A program made the position numbers and the translations under genes. Shown in pieces: positions 15-11,980 of a stretch of DNA of 26,068 bases. Location: the IMG/VR virus record IMGVR_UViG_3300037507_000390, positions 1 to 26,068 of that record; one strand, written 5' to 3'. Under the pieces are notes generated by a model. That model was not told the DNA's origin. It was given only the letters and a program-made list of their open reading frames with translations, and made no database searches. Each line of letters opens with the position of its first letter. Within the stretch, counting starts at the first letter, position 1. The DNA comes from a virus.

Positions 15-218
15 ATGAATCCAAGAAGGGACAACTGGTGCGGCGATAACCTTGCCGAGGAAGCCGAGGATGACGATGATGAAACCCAGCATTTCAACTG
101 GAGAAACAATCCAATCCGTGCCTTATTCGACAACCCGTCCCAACGATCGCACCAGTCGTCCCTAGACTACGAAAACGAATTGGACTATTATCTACCCCGC
201 TATGGAAAAGAGATTTAA
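15..218 (+). CDS. Small acidic hypothetical protein, 5' end uncertain
   Basis: An open frame of 67 codons starting at ATG 15. The same frame stays open to the left edge of the window, so the true start may lie outside and the gene may be 5'-partial; no Shine-Dalgarno precedes the ATG. The product has an acidic stretch (AEEAEDDDDE, residues 14-23) and an aromatic, charged C-terminus ending YGKEI. I recognise no family. It overlaps the next gene by 17 bases, which is the close packing seen elsewhere here and supports it being a real gene of the plus-strand module. It could also be the C-terminal end of a longer protein. Confidence 0.45.
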   Translation: MNPRRDNWCGDNLAEEAEDDDDETQHFNWRNNPIRALFDNPSQRSHQSSLDYENELDYYLPRYGKEI

Positions 219-447
219 AAAAGTAGTAGTCAACCCAAAGACTGGAAGGAAGAACACTATTCGCTATGGGCAAGCAGGCCCAGCCAAAGACGGCGGGGAT
301 CGCATTAGACCCGGTACGGCCAAAGGAAATTCCTATTGCGCTCGCTCTGCCAAGATCAAGGGTGACTGGAAGGACAACCCCAATAGCCCCAACGCACTTT
401 CCCGCAAAAAATGGAAGTGCCGAGGAAGCAAATCAATGAAGTCATGA
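202..447 (+). CDS. Small conserved phage protein with NSPNxLSRKKWKC motif
   Basis: An 81-residue basic protein. The pattern NPKTGRKNTIRYGQAG, then RIRPGTAKG, then YCARSAKIKGDW and NPNSPNALSRKKWKC matches a small conserved protein that I recall as widespread in phage genomes (possibly the family called DUF6321; the number is from memory and unverified). The two conserved cysteines (C46 in SYCARS and C73 in KWKC) could bind a metal or form a structural pair, which is inference. Its function is not known to me. Its stop overlaps the next start as ATGA (444-447), so the two are probably translationally coupled. No clear Shine-Dalgarno lies before ATG 202. Confidence 0.75.
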   Translation: MEKRFKKVVVNPKTGRKNTIRYGQAGPAKDGGDRIRPGTAKGNSYCARSAKIKGDWKDNPNSPNALSRKKWKCRGSKSMKS

Positions 448-6494: not shown

Positions 6495-7022
6495 TTAGGC
6501 AACCAGCAATGCGGTGTCCACAATGCGAGCAAAGATTTTTACTTCGCCAGCAGTGCATTCATCCAGCTTGTAACCACTCGGCGTGAACAACGCTTCAAGC
6601 GTATTCGCGGTCGTGTAGGTCTTTCCCTTGATGACGTTTGCGGTCGTCTGTGATCCACCACTATCTGTCCCGGTGAAGTAAGCACCAGTGTTAGCAGCAA
6701 TGAACACTTCCGTTCCATCAAGATGGAGTTCCGTGGAGGTCACGAAACCATCATCATCGCCAGTATCACCAATCTTAATCGTAAGCGAGGCTCCACCAGC
6801 GTCATCATTGAACGGAGTCACCAATCGGAAGCCAACAGACTCGACAATCGAGTACTGAGGAATTGCAGCGATCGGGAACGTCAGCGTGTCATTATCGGCA
6901 GCAGACGGATTGGCAACGAAGTCCGAAAACTTCACAGTGCCAACGTGCGTCCAGCCACGTCCAACTTCATTGTTTACAGATTGATTTGCTTTTCTGTTAT
7001 TCGTTACGTCAATATTAGCCAT
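6495..7022 (-). CDS. Putative capsid decoration or minor virion protein
   Basis: A 175-residue protein immediately after the major capsid gene. It is rich in Thr, Gly, Asp and Val with a strand-like pattern throughout (GTVKFSDFV, SVGFRLVTPF, LTIKIGDTGDDDGFV, TELHLDGTEVFIAAN, EVKIFARIVDTALL), suggesting one beta-sandwich domain. Small beta proteins encoded directly after a capsid protein often decorate the shell or form head fibres; that is inference from position and composition, with no family motif that I can name. The leader AAAATACAATG lacks a Shine-Dalgarno. A hairpin follows its stop. Confidence 0.55.
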   Translation of the reverse strand: MANIDVTNNRKANQSVNNEVGRGWTHVGTVKFSDFVANPSAADNDTLTFPIAAIPQYSIVESVGFRLVTPFNDDAGGASLTIKIGDTGDDDGFVTSTELHLDGTEVFIAANTGAYFTGTDSGGSQTTANVIKGKTYTTANTLEALFTPSGYKLDECTAGEVKIFARIVDTALLVA

Positions 7023-7047
7023 TGTATTTTGTTTCTATCAATTAGGA

Positions 7048-8037
7048 TTAGTATGCAATCTTTCCGTGTGCTTGCGGAGTGCGGCAGACGAGCGTACCCG
7101 CCATGTCCACATAACCACGCTCACCACCACCTTGGTTTTCAAGGCGAGTGGAACCAAGCGGGATAAGTGTCCCGAAACCAAGATACTTGGGATCGAGAAC
7201 ATAACCCACGTTCGTTGTAGCAGTTGGCATACAGGCAGGGTTTCCGTTCACGATGCGAACCAGACCAAAGTCACTATCGAAGAGGCTCACCGAGAGGGTG
7301 ATCTTCTTGGAGGTGGCATCTTGGTTAACTTGATACACCGTTTCGTTAGTGTTGCCTTCTTGTCGGGTGAAGTTGGCAACAACCTTGCGAAGCGCAACGT
7401 TGGCAACAAGCGTAAGGTTTCCGATCTCGCCGGTCTGGGCGAAAATGGAACCAAGAACATCGTTGAAACCAGATTCCGTGAGCGTTGTGGTAACGATCGA
7501 GCCTGATGGCGTACGGAAGGCAGCCGGAACATCCGACGGGCCAGCGGAGTCAAGCCAGTCACCAAGTCCGCGAAGGGCATACGGAGTGCCAGCACCATCT
7601 TCAACCGATCGGTCGTTGTTGGAGCAGATAGCAGCTTCCGCGTCACGCTTGATTTCGCGCATACACTTGGCTTCAGCTTGGGCCACGTTCGCAGGGCCGA
7701 CACTAGTCACAGCGTTCTGCAGGTTCGACACCAGATAATCACGACGGAAGATCTGGGTGTAGTTCCCAAGACGCGCACGACCAGAGAACTTGTCGTCAAA
7801 TGCAGTAACGTCTGCACCCTCTGCGATACCAGCAGTGCTTGGAGCAGCAAGGCTATCCACAACCCACTCATGGAAGGTCGAGGTGGCTTTACCCTTGGCG
7901 CAGAGCGAAAGGATTGGGGTTTCTTCAGGAGCGAGAATCGTCAAGACATCGCTAAGATCCTCCCGGTTGCCGATGGCTGGGCCTACCCCAGTCTTCGCGG
8001 CGGGAGCCGACGGTTGATATGTAGTGCTAATAGGCAT
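7048..8037 (-). CDS. Major capsid protein (HK97-fold, SU10-like type)
   Basis: A 329-residue protein placed directly downstream of the scaffold. The early segment REDLSDVLTILAPEETPIL, then a FHEWVVDSL strand, AEGADVTAFDDKFSGR and GNYTQIFRRDYLVS, a helix with REIKRDAEAAICSNN, and a late DFGLVRIVNGNPACMP strand correspond to the pattern of phage capsid proteins assigned to the SU10/DUF5309 type of the HK97 fold. The protein forms the icosahedral shell around the packaged DNA. The length is normal for the group and there is no fused protease. The leader ATAAAACAATG is A-rich and lacks a Shine-Dalgarno, which is notable for what should be the most highly translated gene here. Confidence 0.85.
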   Translation of the reverse strand: MPISTTYQPSAPAAKTGVGPAIGNREDLSDVLTILAPEETPILSLCAKGKATSTFHEWVVDSLAAPSTAGIAEGADVTAFDDKFSGRARLGNYTQIFRRDYLVSNLQNAVTSVGPANVAQAEAKCMREIKRDAEAAICSNNDRSVEDGAGTPYALRGLGDWLDSAGPSDVPAAFRTPSGSIVTTTLTESGFNDVLGSIFAQTGEIGNLTLVANVALRKVVANFTRQEGNTNETVYQVNQDATSKKITLSVSLFDSDFGLVRIVNGNPACMPTATTNVGYVLDPKYLGFGTLIPLGSTRLENQGGGERGYVDMAGTLVCRTPQAHGKIAY

Positions 8038-8058
8038 TGTTTTATCTTTCTATGTTGT

Positions 8059-9093
8059 TCACTTAAATTGTGCAATTCGGGCGGCAACAAAATCTTCCAC
8101 ACTACCTGTTTGTTCAAAACGAGAGTAGGCTTCTTTAGCCTTAACCTTGACGTTCTTCCCAGATCTTGCAGCCCCGGCCCCATTGGGTGAAGAGGGCGGA
8201 CTCGCCTTCAACTTCGATCCCATGCCAGTCTCAAGTTTGGATTTTCTGCCAAAGATAGACTTTGCAGCGTGAGCAAGGATGTACTCAATCTGCATCCCAA
8301 GCTCCGGGATTTCTTTTCTCAGCTTGCCAACCAACGGATCAGACAACATATTCTGAAAGTTCTTTCCAACATCGGATTCTGCATCCTCGATCTCTGGAAC
8401 CTCCTTGCGAGCCGCTGTATTGTATTGTTCCGTCAGACTTGCGATCTGTTGGCTCTTTACAATTTCTTGATGCTGGGCCGGCAAGAACTTCGTAATTGCA
8501 TCCCTTGCATTGCGATTCGCTTTGCGAACTTGTCTCTTGGTGAACTCGGAGTTTCCAACCACGATGATGTCATCGAGGCCATAATCTTCGTGTTCCTCAA
8601 GAATGCGATCCGTTGTTTCAAGCGTCTCCTCAAGTTCCTTGTACTTGGCTTGCAACCCCTCAACGGAGTCGATTTCACCAAATGGATTGGATTCCTTGGG
8701 GATCTCCCGAACTGTCTTCTCGGCAATCGTGCTAACCTTCTCTTCAAGGGCTTTGTTCTTCGCGGTCAGTTCCCCGATCCGCTCAAGAAGTCGGCTCTTG
8801 CCTTTCTTGGCTAACTCTTTGATTTGCTCTGGAGACAGACTCAACAGATCTATGTCTGATTGAGACTCTTCTTCACCTTCTTCTTCAGATTCCTCGTCAA
8901 CTTCTTCGGCAGTCTCTTCTTCGGATTCAACCTCCTCAGTTTCCTCTACCTCTTCAGTCTCCTCGGCCTCCTCTGGCTCTGGTTCTGATTGTCCCTGTGA
9001 TGCTTGGATTCGTTGAGACATAAGCTCCTCGAAACTCAAGTTTTCCCCACTGGTTTTAGCGTCTCCAGCGTCCGACGGATTTTGTGCTGTCAT
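8059..9093 (-). CDS. Capsid scaffolding protein
   Basis: A 344-residue protein. Residues 38-80 are extremely acidic low-complexity (EEAEETEEVEETEEVESEEE and onward). A predicted coiled-coil region follows (about 100-160: LLERIGELTAKNKALEEK, KYKELEETLETTDRILEEHE), and the C-terminus is basic (GKNVKVKAKEAYSRFEQTG). Acidic N-terminus, coiled-coil centre and basic C-terminal capsid-binding part are the hallmarks of phage scaffolds that guide procapsid assembly and then leave the shell. The position just before the major capsid gene supports this. I see no protease motif. It is the first gene after the 193-bp gap. Confidence 0.8.
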   Translation of the reverse strand: MTAQNPSDAGDAKTSGENLSFEELMSQRIQASQGQSEPEPEEAEETEEVEETEEVESEEETAEEVDEESEEEGEEESQSDIDLLSLSPEQIKELAKKGKSRLLERIGELTAKNKALEEKVSTIAEKTVREIPKESNPFGEIDSVEGLQAKYKELEETLETTDRILEEHEDYGLDDIIVVGNSEFTKRQVRKANRNARDAITKFLPAQHQEIVKSQQIASLTEQYNTAARKEVPEIEDAESDVGKNFQNMLSDPLVGKLRKEIPELGMQIEYILAHAAKSIFGRKSKLETGMGSKLKASPPSSPNGAGAARSGKNVKVKAKEAYSRFEQTGSVEDFVAARIAQFK

Positions 9094-9141
9094 GTCTATT
9101 TACACCAGTTAACGCCCGGCGGTGGCGAGTTCGTGGTGAGA

Positions 9142-9167
9142 CAAACATAAAACTAATAATATGTCAA
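9142..9167 (-). promoter_or_regulatory. Possible late promoter upstream of scaffold and capsid
   Basis: On the minus strand, TTGACA at 9167-9162 is followed by an AT-rich stretch and TATGTTTG at 9149-9142. A sigma70-type -10 box is missing at 16-18 bp from TTGACA. TATGTTTG fits TAnnTTTG, the -7 element described for Bacteroidota promoters, but the distance to the TTG (15 bases) is shorter than usual there. The location, after two hairpins and before the most needed structural genes, makes a promoter reasonable. Confidence is low. Confidence 0.3.
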
Positions 9168-9189
9168 CACCCCTAGAAATGAGCAGGGC

Positions 9190-9209
9190 CGGGAGTTATT
9201 AAACCCCCG
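9190..9209 (-). promoter_or_regulatory. 8-bp hairpin with UAAU loop in the late transcript
   Basis: On the minus-strand RNA, CGGGGGTT pairs with AACUCCCG around a UAAU tetraloop. The fifth pair is G-U in this strand but A-C in the opposite RNA, which suggests that the minus-strand transcript is the one that folds. No U-run follows, so termination is not shown; attenuation or RNA processing ahead of the scaffold gene is possible. Confidence 0.45.
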
Positions 9210-9230
9210 ACCCGCCCAACTAACCAATAA

Positions 9231-9254
9231 GGCGGGAACACCGAAAAACCCGCC
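9231..9254 (-). promoter_or_regulatory. GC-rich hairpin between the small-gene cluster and scaffold
   Basis: GGCGGG at 9231-9236 pairs with CCCGCC at 9249-9254 around a 12-base loop. In the minus-strand direction it comes 33 bases after the stop at 9287 and is followed by TTATTGG, a weak T-rich run. It may end or weaken transcription from the upstream genes before the scaffold gene. With the next hairpin it makes a tandem pair. Confidence 0.4.
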
Positions 9255-9286
9255 GAGCCGATATGAAACTCAAATTATGGAAAATG

Positions 9287-9490
9287 TCAAGATAGTAATT
9301 GCAGCATCTCATCCAGAGTAGCAATGCTTCCTGCCACCTTCATAACCTCTTGCTCACTACTACATTGCCGCAGATCACCAAAGAATCGCTCGCGCTCATC
9401 CCGAAGGAATTGCAAGATTACCTTGTATTCATCCCTATCACGCAGCCCTTCGACTGCCTGTTGGATTGTTGGTTTTGGTATCGGTGTCAT
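9287..9490 (-). CDS. Small helical hypothetical protein
   Basis: A 67-residue protein, MTPIPKPTIQQAVEGLRDRD followed by helical DERERFFGDLRQ and a C-terminal SIATLDEMLQLL. Alternating charged and hydrophobic positions suggest two or three amphipathic helices, possibly a small assembly or connector factor. I recognise no named family, but the design recurs in phages near portal or scaffold genes. The leader AAATACTATG lacks a Shine-Dalgarno. It is the last gene before the hairpin-bearing 193-bp gap. Confidence 0.65.
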   Translation of the reverse strand: MTPIPKPTIQQAVEGLRDRDEYKVILQFLRDERERFFGDLRQCSSEQEVMKVAGSIATLDEMLQLLS

Positions 9491-9499
9491 AGTATTTGG

Positions 9500-9661
9500 T
9501 TAGATTTTGTTCTTTTCCATAGCGCGGATCTTGCGCTCTTGTCGTAGCATCTCCTTGGTCGGCTTGCGTCCAGACCCTTTGTTGGCTCGGATATTATCCC
9601 ATAGTCCGCGTTCGGAGTATGAGCCATCCTTTCGTTTGATCATCTTTTTCACCTTTTTCAT
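9500..9661 (-). CDS. 53-residue basic protein (KDGSYSERGLWDNIRA type)
   Basis: A short gene from ATG 9661, two bases after the previous stop, to TAA 9500-9502. The product starts MKKVKKMIKRKDGSYSERGL and continues with WDNIRANKGSGRKPTKEML, then a charged helix ending MEKNKI. Small phage proteins with the pattern KDG-x-Y-x-x-x-G-L-W-D-N-I and GSG-(R/K)-K-P-T-x-E-M are common next to head genes; their job is unknown to me. It is strongly basic and may bind nucleic acid. Confidence 0.65.
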   Translation of the reverse strand: MKKVKKMIKRKDGSYSERGLWDNIRANKGSGRKPTKEMLRQERKIRAMEKNKI

Positions 9662-9662
9662 G

Positions 9663-9785
9663 TCACTTTACTTTTGTTACTTGCTTGCGAACCTTGGATA
9701 CCTTGGGGACTGCCCCAGATTTTCTTTTCTTGGACTCCTCACGCATCTTGCGCTTAAATTTCTGGTGTGGCAGTTCTCCAATCAT
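9663..9785 (-). CDS. 40-residue lysine-rich protein
   Basis: A small frame from ATG 9785, overlapping the previous stop as ATGA, to TGA 9663-9665. The product MIGELPHQKFKRKMREESKK, then RKSGAVPKVSKVRKQVTKVK, has about 40% Lys/Arg. The four-base coupling on one side and the one-base gap on the other support it being real. Such peptides may coat or bind nucleic acid in the virion; that is a guess from composition. Confidence 0.55.
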   Translation of the reverse strand: MIGELPHQKFKRKMREESKKRKSGAVPKVSKVRKQVTKVK

Positions 9786-9907
9786 TTCTTTTTGCTAGAT
9801 TTTCTTGGCATACGGCTCATCTTGATCTCAACCTCGACATAGCCTTTACCTTTGCCTTTACGCTCCATCTTTTCGTGGCCGCAGCCACATGATTTTCCTT
9901 TTTTCAT
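9782..9907 (-). CDS. 41-residue CxCxH lysine-rich protein
   Basis: A small frame from ATG 9907, with a clear AAGGA Shine-Dalgarno six bases before the ATG, placed inside the end of the portal gene. The product starts MKKGKSCGCGHEKMERKGKG and continues KGYVEVEIKMSRMPRKSSKK. C7, C9 and H11 form a CGCGH cluster that could bind a metal, though a full zinc site would need a fourth ligand or dimerisation. The remainder is basic. It overlaps the next small gene by four bases. I recognise no family. Confidence 0.6.
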   Translation of the reverse strand: MKKGKSCGCGHEKMERKGKGKGYVEVEIKMSRMPRKSSKKK

Positions 9908-9910
9908 AAG

Positions 9911-11980
9911 TTATCCTTGTTGCATTCCTTGTGTTGTTGCCCCACCCATTTGTGCTGGCTGAGTTCCGATTCTTCCGATTTCAGCATTTTGCATCTGCTG
10001 AAGCATAAACTGGTATTGCCCTGCGTACTTCTGGAGACGCTCACCAAACGCTTGATCTTGTTGCGCCCTAGCTGCGACATCAGGCTGCTGAAGGTAAGCT
10101 TGGACAAGCTGTAGGGCAACCTGTGCGCCATTAGGACGGGCTGGAACCTCGATGCCAGAGTAGATCTTGGCAAGGTCGTCAGTCACATCCTTCATCAGCT
10201 TCTCCTGTGCTTCCTCCGCAGGCTGCATAACGTAATCAGCAAAGATCGGGTTAATGCTCGCAGCCGTGAACTCCAGCAGCTTATTGATGTCAATGCGCCC
10301 ATTGCGGTCGAACTGGATCAACGAGATCATGTTCTTCAACTGTGTTTCCGCAGTCTCCGGGTCTGTCTCCTTAGTATCGAACGAGACAACGATACTGTAA
10401 TCATCATCCGCGCTACCCTTGGTCATAATCTGCGGGTTGGGATTGCCGGTCACTTGGAAGAACACCTCGTCCGGCCCCATGCGCTGATACAGCTTCCACG
10501 CCAACGTGAGAACGTCCCGAACGTGGTCAAGGAACTTGTTTACGATGAACTGCTGGCGCACCACGGAAAACGGAGAATTGGGGTCTAGCCCAACTGCTCG
10601 GTCTGCCTGCTGTACCATTTGTGATTCAATGCGCTCGCTTCCTGGGTCAAACGGAGGCACAGGGCCAAACGTCACCTCACCAAGACGGCGGTATGGGACT
10701 CTGCGTCCCGGCCCCCAGTCTGACGGCGGTCGTCCTGCTGGGTGCATAATCGGCGGTAGTGTTGCCAAAGATGCACGGTCAATTCGGCTATCTCGCTCGG
10801 TCTTAATCTGCATCTGCGGCCCACGGAGGATGTCGGAGAACGTCATGGTCTCATACATCCGCTTCTGGTCGTTGGATAGCCGTGTCACCACAAACGGGTA
10901 ATCGTCGTATCCATTGAGCAACTCATGCTTGGCGTATCCCTCGGTCGTAGGATGGAACACTGTGCAGTAGATCCCCTCGCTGCCGTCCTCCTCGTCAATA
11001 AGACGTTGATACGCGTACACCACCATCACAAGGTCGTTGTCGTCCGTGATTGGCAAGCGGTCGATGGTCTTCTGTTTCTCCCCATCAACGTAGAAGGAAT
11101 CCTTACCCCGAAGTGTAGAGATGGCGTTATCCACCCATTGTCTATCCCACCCTTCGTTCTCCACCTTTTTCTCCAGTTCTTGCGAGGTAAGGAAGGTTCT
11201 CCAGAACACATACGGGCTACGTTGTGGGTCTGAAACATAAGGTGGGAAGATTACTTCCCCATCGGGAGCGCAGGCGTAAACCACCGGGCAGTCCACACTG
11301 TTGCGCGGCATCGGGATCTCGGAGATTCCTGTCTTGCGAAGTTCTTTGATTGCCTTCTTGGCACGCTTGTCGGAAATAGCCGGAAACGCCTGCTGGATCG
11401 TCGTAAGAACCATTTCGTCATTCCCACCCATGGCGATCATTTCAGCCAAATCTGGGGCAATCTGGGCGATCTGCTCCAGCGTCACAGATTGTTTGTAGGT
11501 GCGTTTCTCGCGAGTCCACCCAACGTAAGAAACCATAATCCCCTTTTCCAACAAGTAGTTAGCTCCAAGTTCCATTTGGTTCTTGAAGTCAGGGATGTAC
11601 GTCTTACGCATCCACTTCAGGAATGCAGACACAATCTGCGCCCTTGGGATACTAGCCATGCTGGTTGGGAACGCCTTGATGTGACTCCGCTCAAGGGCTT
11701 GGTCAAGGATGGAAACGTAAGCATCAATCCGCTCACCAATGACATTTACCTCCATGTCGGAAGCCCCCTGCCACGGGAAAGCATTCGGCCCTTGTTTACG
11801 CAGATCTTCAGACTTGCCATCCCAGATGTTGCGCCGCTCCTCGTAGGATCGCAGACAAGCCTCAAAGTACTCCTCCAGATCAAGAAGGCAGGTATCGAAT
11901 GCGTTCTGCAATGCAGGAACATTCGGCTCGTTGTCCAAGTAAATCATGGACATTTCTTGATCTTCAGTCGGATCGCTCAT
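9911..11980 (-). CDS. Portal protein
   Basis: A 689-residue protein in the size range of short-tailed phage portals. Near the N-terminus lies FPWQGASDMEVNVIGERID, the conserved portal segment seen in this type, followed by WMRKTYIPDFKNQMELGANY. The middle holds PSDWGPGRRVPYRRLGEVTF, and a C-terminal Q-rich region (QAYLQQPDVAARAQQDQ, YQFMLQQMQNAE, then a Gly/Gln tail) resembles the barrel and tail end. Twelve copies are expected to form the vertex ring through which TerL pumps DNA and to which the adaptor attaches. It overlaps the AT-hook-like gene by four bases. The order TerS-TerL-small gene-portal-scaffold-capsid confirms the identification. Confidence 0.85.
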   Translation of the reverse strand: MSDPTEDQEMSMIYLDNEPNVPALQNAFDTCLLDLEEYFEACLRSYEERRNIWDGKSEDLRKQGPNAFPWQGASDMEVNVIGERIDAYVSILDQALERSHIKAFPTSMASIPRAQIVSAFLKWMRKTYIPDFKNQMELGANYLLEKGIMVSYVGWTREKRTYKQSVTLEQIAQIAPDLAEMIAMGGNDEMVLTTIQQAFPAISDKRAKKAIKELRKTGISEIPMPRNSVDCPVVYACAPDGEVIFPPYVSDPQRSPYVFWRTFLTSQELEKKVENEGWDRQWVDNAISTLRGKDSFYVDGEKQKTIDRLPITDDNDLVMVVYAYQRLIDEEDGSEGIYCTVFHPTTEGYAKHELLNGYDDYPFVVTRLSNDQKRMYETMTFSDILRGPQMQIKTERDSRIDRASLATLPPIMHPAGRPPSDWGPGRRVPYRRLGEVTFGPVPPFDPGSERIESQMVQQADRAVGLDPNSPFSVVRQQFIVNKFLDHVRDVLTLAWKLYQRMGPDEVFFQVTGNPNPQIMTKGSADDDYSIVVSFDTKETDPETAETQLKNMISLIQFDRNGRIDINKLLEFTAASINPIFADYVMQPAEEAQEKLMKDVTDDLAKIYSGIEVPARPNGAQVALQLVQAYLQQPDVAARAQQDQAFGERLQKYAGQYQFMLQQMQNAEIGRIGTQPAQMGGATTQGMQQG

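Follow-up and report, generated by a model that had tools for sequence, protein, structure and literature searches.

Small Basic Genes Between Portal and Scaffold of an IMG/VR Phage as Putative Virion Cargo Modules

Introduction

T7 gp6.7 and the T4 internal proteins IPI-III are small virion proteins that are encoded beside head genes and vary between relatives; those of T4 are carried in the capsid and injected. A second point of comparison is cargo protein 1 of the crassviruses (Pfam family PF25725). In phicrAss001, gp45 is this cargo protein C1, which mass spectrometry places in virions and which is partly resolved on the portal wing (PMC10172136). Polyvalent proteins are phage proteins of several domains for which packaging and injection are predicted, and some of their domains also occur solo (Iyer et al., 2017; PMC5512222). 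Finally, Pfam holds two small basic families, DUF6321 (PF19846) and DUF6496 (PF20106), of which our literature search found no mention.

Here we describe four very small genes, s1 to s4, in a 26,068-nt stretch of viral DNA (IMG/VR record IMGVR_UViG_3300037507_000390, positions 1 to 26,068; hereafter the window). Like T7 gp6.7 and T4 IPI-III, the putative virion proteins s1, s2 and s3 are small, are encoded beside head genes and vary between relatives. The window's small genes are encoded among head genes and variable between relatives, as expected of ejected internal virion proteins; the strong positive charge expected of small DNA-condensing proteins is found in s1-s3 but not in s4. All four are single units of 40-67 aa, unlike polyvalent proteins, which join several effector domains in a long polypeptide. 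Among the papers listed when the literature was searched for virion proteomes, phage portals and small basic proteins, none concerned these genes, and none offered virion mass-spectrometry evidence for the small proteins.

Results and Discussion

Gene Order of the Head Cluster

The head genes of the window, all on the minus strand, run from portal through s1, s2, s3 and s4 to scaffold and capsid. The portal gene (9911..11980, minus strand; 689 aa) is the upstream border of the slot that holds the small genes. Its product is 22% identical to an annotated portal protein (MW202524, E 1e-19) and 54% identical to a hypothetical protein of Phage C75C1, and the call is further supported by the place of the gene after the terminase gene. 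It is followed, all on the minus strand, by s1 (9782..9907; 41 aa, net charge +11), which belongs to a conserved small basic family; by s2 (9663..9785; 40 aa, +12), whose start overlaps the s1 stop via ATGA; by s3 (9500..9661; 53 aa, +13) after a 1-base gap; and, after a further gap of 9 bases, by s4 (9287..9490; 67 aa, -3). The first-pass annotation had described four frames of just these sizes, order and spacing, with the first three basic, and in this it was right.

The scaffold-like protein (8059..9093, minus strand; 344 aa), with an acidic N-terminal tract of charge -30 in 60 residues, was called from its position before the major capsid protein and its acidic composition, family matches being all weaker than E 0.05. 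The major capsid protein (7048..8037, minus strand) is of the SU10 type (PF17236, E 3.2e-53). Outside the head cluster, the window encodes another basic protein of 81 aa, DUF6321-like and here assigned to family c2 (202..447, plus strand). The 193-nt gap between s4 and scaffold (9094..9286, minus strand) has a folding energy of -67.5 kcal/mol, against -52.4 kcal/mol for shuffles (z -3.7), and is a possible processing or terminator element. Apart from within the portal gene, a scan of the minus strand from portal start to s4 end revealed no terminator-like site. No GTDB contig bearing the window's terminase was confirmed.

Conservation of the Four Frames

A portal search of IMG/VR gave 343 relatives, of which 80 loci were kept, making 81 records with the window; one of them (L002) is the same virus as the window. 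Intact copies of s1, s3 and s4 are present in 58, 31 and 73 of the 81 records. Every relative with a tblastn match to one of these three genes holds an intact copy, and no broken copy was seen among the 80; stops inside some of the alignments are not breaks, because the alignments read past the genes' own stop codons. The pN/pS ratio is 0.21 for s1 (45 distinct DNA sequences), 0.22 for s3 (25) and 0.25 for s4 (64, one from phage C75C1). For s2, found only in the window, L002 and L003, the ratio of 0.27 comes from one pair of sequences. The proposed conservation check of each frame thus turned out in favor of genes, with s1, s3 and s4 unbroken in relatives and pN/pS at 0.2-0.27 over all four. 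The four frames are real genes under purifying selection, more than chance would give. None matches a Pfam family at E 1, which also sets them apart from DUF6321 and DUF6496, and their matches in PHROGs all lie above E 0.1.

The AAGGA before s1, which the first-pass annotation considered a good Shine-Dalgarno sequence, proved uninformative. Motifs of this kind precede 2 of 30 minus-strand genes (window 1670-25854), against 12.5% of random 15-mers. In the relatives, a looser pattern precedes 19 of 58 s1 copies, 11 of 31 s3 copies and none of the 73 s4 copies, against 28% of random 18-mers. We therefore rejected the Shine-Dalgarno motif, which stands at chance level, as evidence for s1. Upstream regions of the window's minus-strand genes appear A-rich by eye, a trait of Bacteroidota. 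Given these regions and the 2 of 30 genes with a Shine-Dalgarno-like motif, the host may be independent of such motifs.

A search with s1 kept 80 loci of 132 relatives, and all 70 newly kept loci carry a portal gene of the window's type. The family follows the pattern GCGHE..GKGKGYVEIEIKM..PKK. The CGCGH cluster remarked upon in s1 is present, but it does not hold as a conserved metal site: of its residues, C9 and H11 alone are invariant across 15 aligned sequences, and a zinc-finger reading was rejected on this ground.

A Variable Slot Between Portal and s4

Complete portal-scaffold intervals were available from 51 records, namely the window and 50 relatives (L002 among them), and span 559 to 3695 bases. 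In the relatives we followed six basic families: s1, s2, s3, c2 (DUF6321-like), c3 (DUF6496) and c9 (the GLYANI family). With one copy counted per family and locus, these families supply 107 genes (s1 36, c2 26, c3 21, s3 18, c9 4, s2 2), every one of them located after the portal gene and before s4. They form 16 different gene sets or orders over the 50 intervals, the empty set included, and 2 of the 50 hold none of the six families. Because the window's c2 gene lies outside the head cluster, but c2 occupies the portal-s4 slot in 26 of the 50 relatives' intervals, it seems to have moved.

A close relative (L003) gives a view of how the slot changes. It lacks s1 and carries a diverged s2 allele (pS 0.75); its portal protein is 98% identical to the window's, and the products of its portal, s3, s4, scaffold and capsid genes share 92-98% identity with those of the window. 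The slot thus evolves by the swapping of small pieces.

The families c2 and c3 correspond to the two small basic Pfam families named above, both of which occur in the slot of relatives. For c2 the correspondence is seen by profile comparison with a DUF6321-type domain, in which 39 columns align at E 3e-7 with a probability of 93%; the window's own c2 protein has no match to Pfam DUF6321 at E 1 and does not reach the gathering score, and a protein of another record (L093) scores above the Pfam cut-off.

The s3 Module and Crassvirus-Like Cargo Proteins

The s3 family shares a module of about 45 residues, DGS.S.RGLWDNIRANKGSGKKPTKEML.QERKI, and the sequence pattern reported for the third frame, KDGSYSERGLWDNI, is indeed present in s3. 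Searching with the s3 alignment returned at least 545 relatives, from which 80 loci were kept, 78 of them new and 75 outside the window's clade. Many of the carriers are large crassvirus-like proteins, reaching 1821 aa, in which the module is N-terminal, central or C-terminal. Compared over 48 sequences of widely differing phages, the module has 16 positions that never vary. Among the 32 carriers of at least 250 aa, seven contain the crAss_CARG1 domain (PF25725), two a glucosaminidase, two a DUF5754 and one a lysozyme domain; 25 have no CARG1 match. These are the only domains that the 32 carriers yield at E 0.001, a further difference from polyvalent proteins.

As a control we drew 55 large neighbors of s3 carriers at random from 75. 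Muzzle proteins make up 13 of the 55, and CARG1 is found in none, against 7 of the 32 carriers (Fisher p 6e-4); a local profile search likewise gave seven CARG1-type carriers and no such neighbor. Since some carriers are near-identical (L138 and L143), sequences were also merged: at 90% identity, 6 of 30 carriers and 0 of 52 neighbors are CARG1-type (p 0.002), and at 50% identity 5 of 24 and 0 of 44 (p 0.004).

Gene position gives a second link. A homologue of the muzzle protein (query phicrAss001 gp44) was found in the fetched flank of 50 of the 75 kept loci outside the window's clade, 44 times upstream and six times downstream. Sixteen of the 75, including three near-identical pairs, have an s3-bearing gene (713-1821 aa) that begins no more than 10 nt after the muzzle gene; in phicrAss001, gp45 is likewise the next gene after the muzzle gene gp44. 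One 134-aa s3-bearing protein (L144) matches gp45 directly (E 2e-6). A search of phicrAss001 gp45 itself for s3 gave no match, and the window's s3 also differs from cargo protein 1 in being a free 53-aa gene after the portal gene, without CARG1 or any other Pfam match. At the 25 kept loci that lack a muzzle gene, 10 of 34 candidate neighbors (from 9 loci) were scanned, and only one matches a virion structural family.

The window's s3 is homologous to a module of proteins that either bear CARG1 or are encoded at the cargo gene position. Unexpectedly, s3 is thus a portable module that also occurs in crassvirus-like cargo proteins; other phages build it into proteins that probably travel inside the virion. 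The module also enters other combinations: 18 distinct but closely similar proteins of other phages, 149-190 aa long (Pfam run on one), join it to a DUF6321-type domain. In the window's clade the relative of this domain, c2, is a gene of its own, and s3 and a DUF6321-type gene adjoin in 5 of the 50 complete intervals of the window's relatives.

The predicted structure of s3 is of moderate confidence (mean pLDDT 70) and has two helices after a loosely ordered start; a fold search gave no match (best E 7). The window's s3 has no match at E 1 in a collection of named phages, where three Arthrobacter records that matched another s3 member at E 6-8 were taken as chance. A union of s3 and the GLYANI family c9 in one superfamily is suggestive only and was not adopted (hhalign probability 41%, E 3e-4, against 0.2% for s1 and c9).

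Related Basic Families in Other Phages

A similar cluster of small basic genes is found in the Pelagibacter phage HTVC168P, which encodes three proteins of 35, 49 and 81 aa with charges of +16, +17 and +25 between scaffold and capsid; two of them match the sister families c9 (E 6e-28) and c2 (E 6e-5). Members of c9 also lie between scaffold and capsid in Eistla, Bylgja and S-SBP1. None of the basic families was found in Syn5 and P-SSP7, and the s4 HMM has no match in the region searched of Roseobacter phage CRP-212. Fifteen named records, chosen by us from the matches, were opened for c2, c9 or c3: an annotated head, packaging or virion gene lies within 2 kb in 10 of them and is absent in five. 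Over all c2 loci, 30 of 76 have no head gene of the window's type. The scaffold-capsid region of the cyanophages S-SBP1 (L312) and P-SSP7 (L324) also holds hli and psbA genes. In another record (L295), a terminase-like ORF at 6982-9492 has weak matches to intein/Hint domains, below the Pfam curated cut-offs.

s4 and the Acidic Scaffold

All 50 complete intervals of relatives contain s4, which is a conserved core gene separate from the basic genes and forms the downstream border of their slot. The first-pass annotation had treated the four frames as one lysine-rich set, while itself calling only the first three basic; the grouping stands for s1-s3 and fails for s4, a core gene with a charge of -3. 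The AF2 model of s4 (mean pLDDT 94) has three helices and is mainly an alpha-hairpin. It resembles many helical hairpins in a fold search, none significantly (best PDB E 0.31, best BFVD E 0.06), and a search for solved relatives of s3 and s4 gave none below E 0.5. Phage C75C1 has a weakly s4-like gene (E 6e-4) after its portal homologue. As a small helical-hairpin protein encoded at the end of the same gene string, s4 could perhaps serve as an assembly chaperone of portal or scaffold, though a role as chaperone or adaptor is a guess.

The most acidic 60 residues of the scaffold carry a charge of -30 in the window and a median of -31 over 90 distinct homologues. Such a very acidic scaffold would fit, as a guess, an electrostatic recruitment of basic proteins. 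For C75C1, a phage without the basic genes, the value is -17. The pelagiphage scaffolds that accompany basic genes reach only -8 in this measure, against -20 and -14 for Syn5 and P-SSP7, phages without these families, and because this comparison gives no support, we keep scaffold recruitment only as a weak idea.

Possible Function of the Small Basic Proteins

Taken as a whole, these small genes likely encode virion passengers and are not chance frames. Our main reading, to which we give a probability of slightly under one half, is that s1-s3 form an exchangeable set of small basic modules that travel as virion cargo, with s4 as a separate core gene. Expressed along with the portal, the proteins would enter the procapsid close to it, possibly through electrostatic contact with the acidic scaffold and afterwards with DNA, and would exit together with the genome when the phage infects. 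That s1-s3 are expressed late with the portal, are packaged, touch portal, scaffold or DNA, and are ejected is what we infer from the genes and their neighbors. For s3, the cargo reading is supported by the presence of its module in CARG1 proteins or at the cargo gene position. For the set, it draws support from the confinement between portal and s4 and from the similar cluster in pelagiphages; s1 and s2, neither of which has a cargo link of its own, are counted as putative cargo from position and charge. The suggestion that basic peptides beside packaging genes might be virion factors is strengthened on the same grounds for the first three frames and does not extend to s4. For the DNA binding that it included, the searches for solved relatives of s3 and s4 and the fold search with s3 brought no significant match. 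Several results weigh against cargo: phicrAss001 gp45 is without s3, Syn5 and P-SSP7 are without the families, 25 of 32 large carriers have no CARG1 match, 30 of 76 c2 loci have no window-type head gene, and small frames of other kinds lie beyond s4 in relatives.

The strong positive charge of s1-s3 would also suit nucleic-acid-binding proteins with a task in the infected cell, be it replication, transcription, translation or the condensation of DNA. Such proteins would have no special route into the particle, and the site behind the portal gene would be one where insertions are tolerated. This is the alternative that survives best, and we regard it as somewhat unlikely. The adjacency of c9 and c2 to a DnaB helicase gene in one record (L232), together with the place of the window's c2 outside the head cluster, weakens the cargo reading and speaks for action in the cell. 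Action in the cell is also favored by the psbA and hli genes in the cyanophage scaffold-capsid region, whose products are not expected in virions. It is opposed by the muzzle gene near s3 in two thirds of the kept loci outside the clade (50/75), by the CARG1 domain that 7 of 32 large carriers combine with the s3 module, and by the location of every counted basic gene (107/107) between portal and s4.

The gain, loss and allele swapping in the slot, seen in L003 against head proteins of 92-98% identity and in the 16 gene sets or orders with the empty one included, would also be expected if s1-s3 were accessory effectors of host takeover or against host defense that the capsid delivers into the cell as it does the T4 internal proteins, with charge merely aiding their packaging. 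Yet s1, s3, c2 and c3 evolve at pN/pS 0.16-0.22, slowly for arms-race effectors, and the invariant positions of the s3 module are kept across very different phages, so that we hold an effector role to be improbable. A lasting place of s1-s3 in the particle, as minor structural components of the portal vertex or as aids to assembly and not as ejected cargo, would agree with the adjacency of their genes to those of portal and scaffold and with the domain of crassvirus C1 that is bound to the portal wing (PMC10172136). It is improbable, since the genes are not essential: 2 of 50 complete intervals do without all six families, and C75C1 has a single gene, the weakly s4-like one, between portal and next large gene.

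If the cargo reading of s1-s3 is extended, tiny basic modules for cargo (s3, GLYANI, DUF6321, DUF6496 and s1) may make up a kit common to phages of unrelated groups. Such interchangeable packaging units, encoded as separate genes in a slot of their own next to portal and scaffold or as domains of crassvirus cargo proteins, would load passengers at the portal side and deliver them with the DNA; we consider a kit of this breadth unlikely. Tiny basic "hypothetical" genes of these families adjoin head genes in many of the aquatic phages examined. Should s3-type modules be cargo tags, one could test these genes for a passenger role in the virion, a defined sub-domain would be added to the crassvirus cargo protein, and a short portable sequence would be at hand to ask how phages choose the proteins they carry into the cell.

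Other Small Genes and Tails at the Slot

Beyond s4, the relatives do have small frames of other kinds, such as a family with an NKARGT tail that is seen in 12 instances. Dissimilar cassette proteins of nine loci (L019, L021, L022, L044, L047, L048, L051, L071, L077) share a 16-residue C-terminus, NKARGTQSS..RK..K or close variants, and a related NKARGTMSS tail ends another family after s4. Overall, NKARGT-type tails occur in 19 distinct proteins and 23 instances. Under the unlikely reading of a shared kit of cargo modules, the NKARGTQSS..RK..K tail may be a further loading tag.

In some relatives, extra genes after the portal gene copy the 3' end of the gene upstream as their own C-terminus (66 of 87 bases in L038 and L040, 68 of 86 in L045), and in L055 an extra gene after c2 copies the c2 3' end with 24 of 27 bases identical. 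A similar copied tail is visible in protein only in L037 and L074, and in L019, L027 and L044 the DNA match is not at the ends. We read the extra genes with copied tails as HNH or endonuclease VII types, the one tested being that of L019 (endonuclease VII). The copied tails look as if insertion recreates the end of the target gene.
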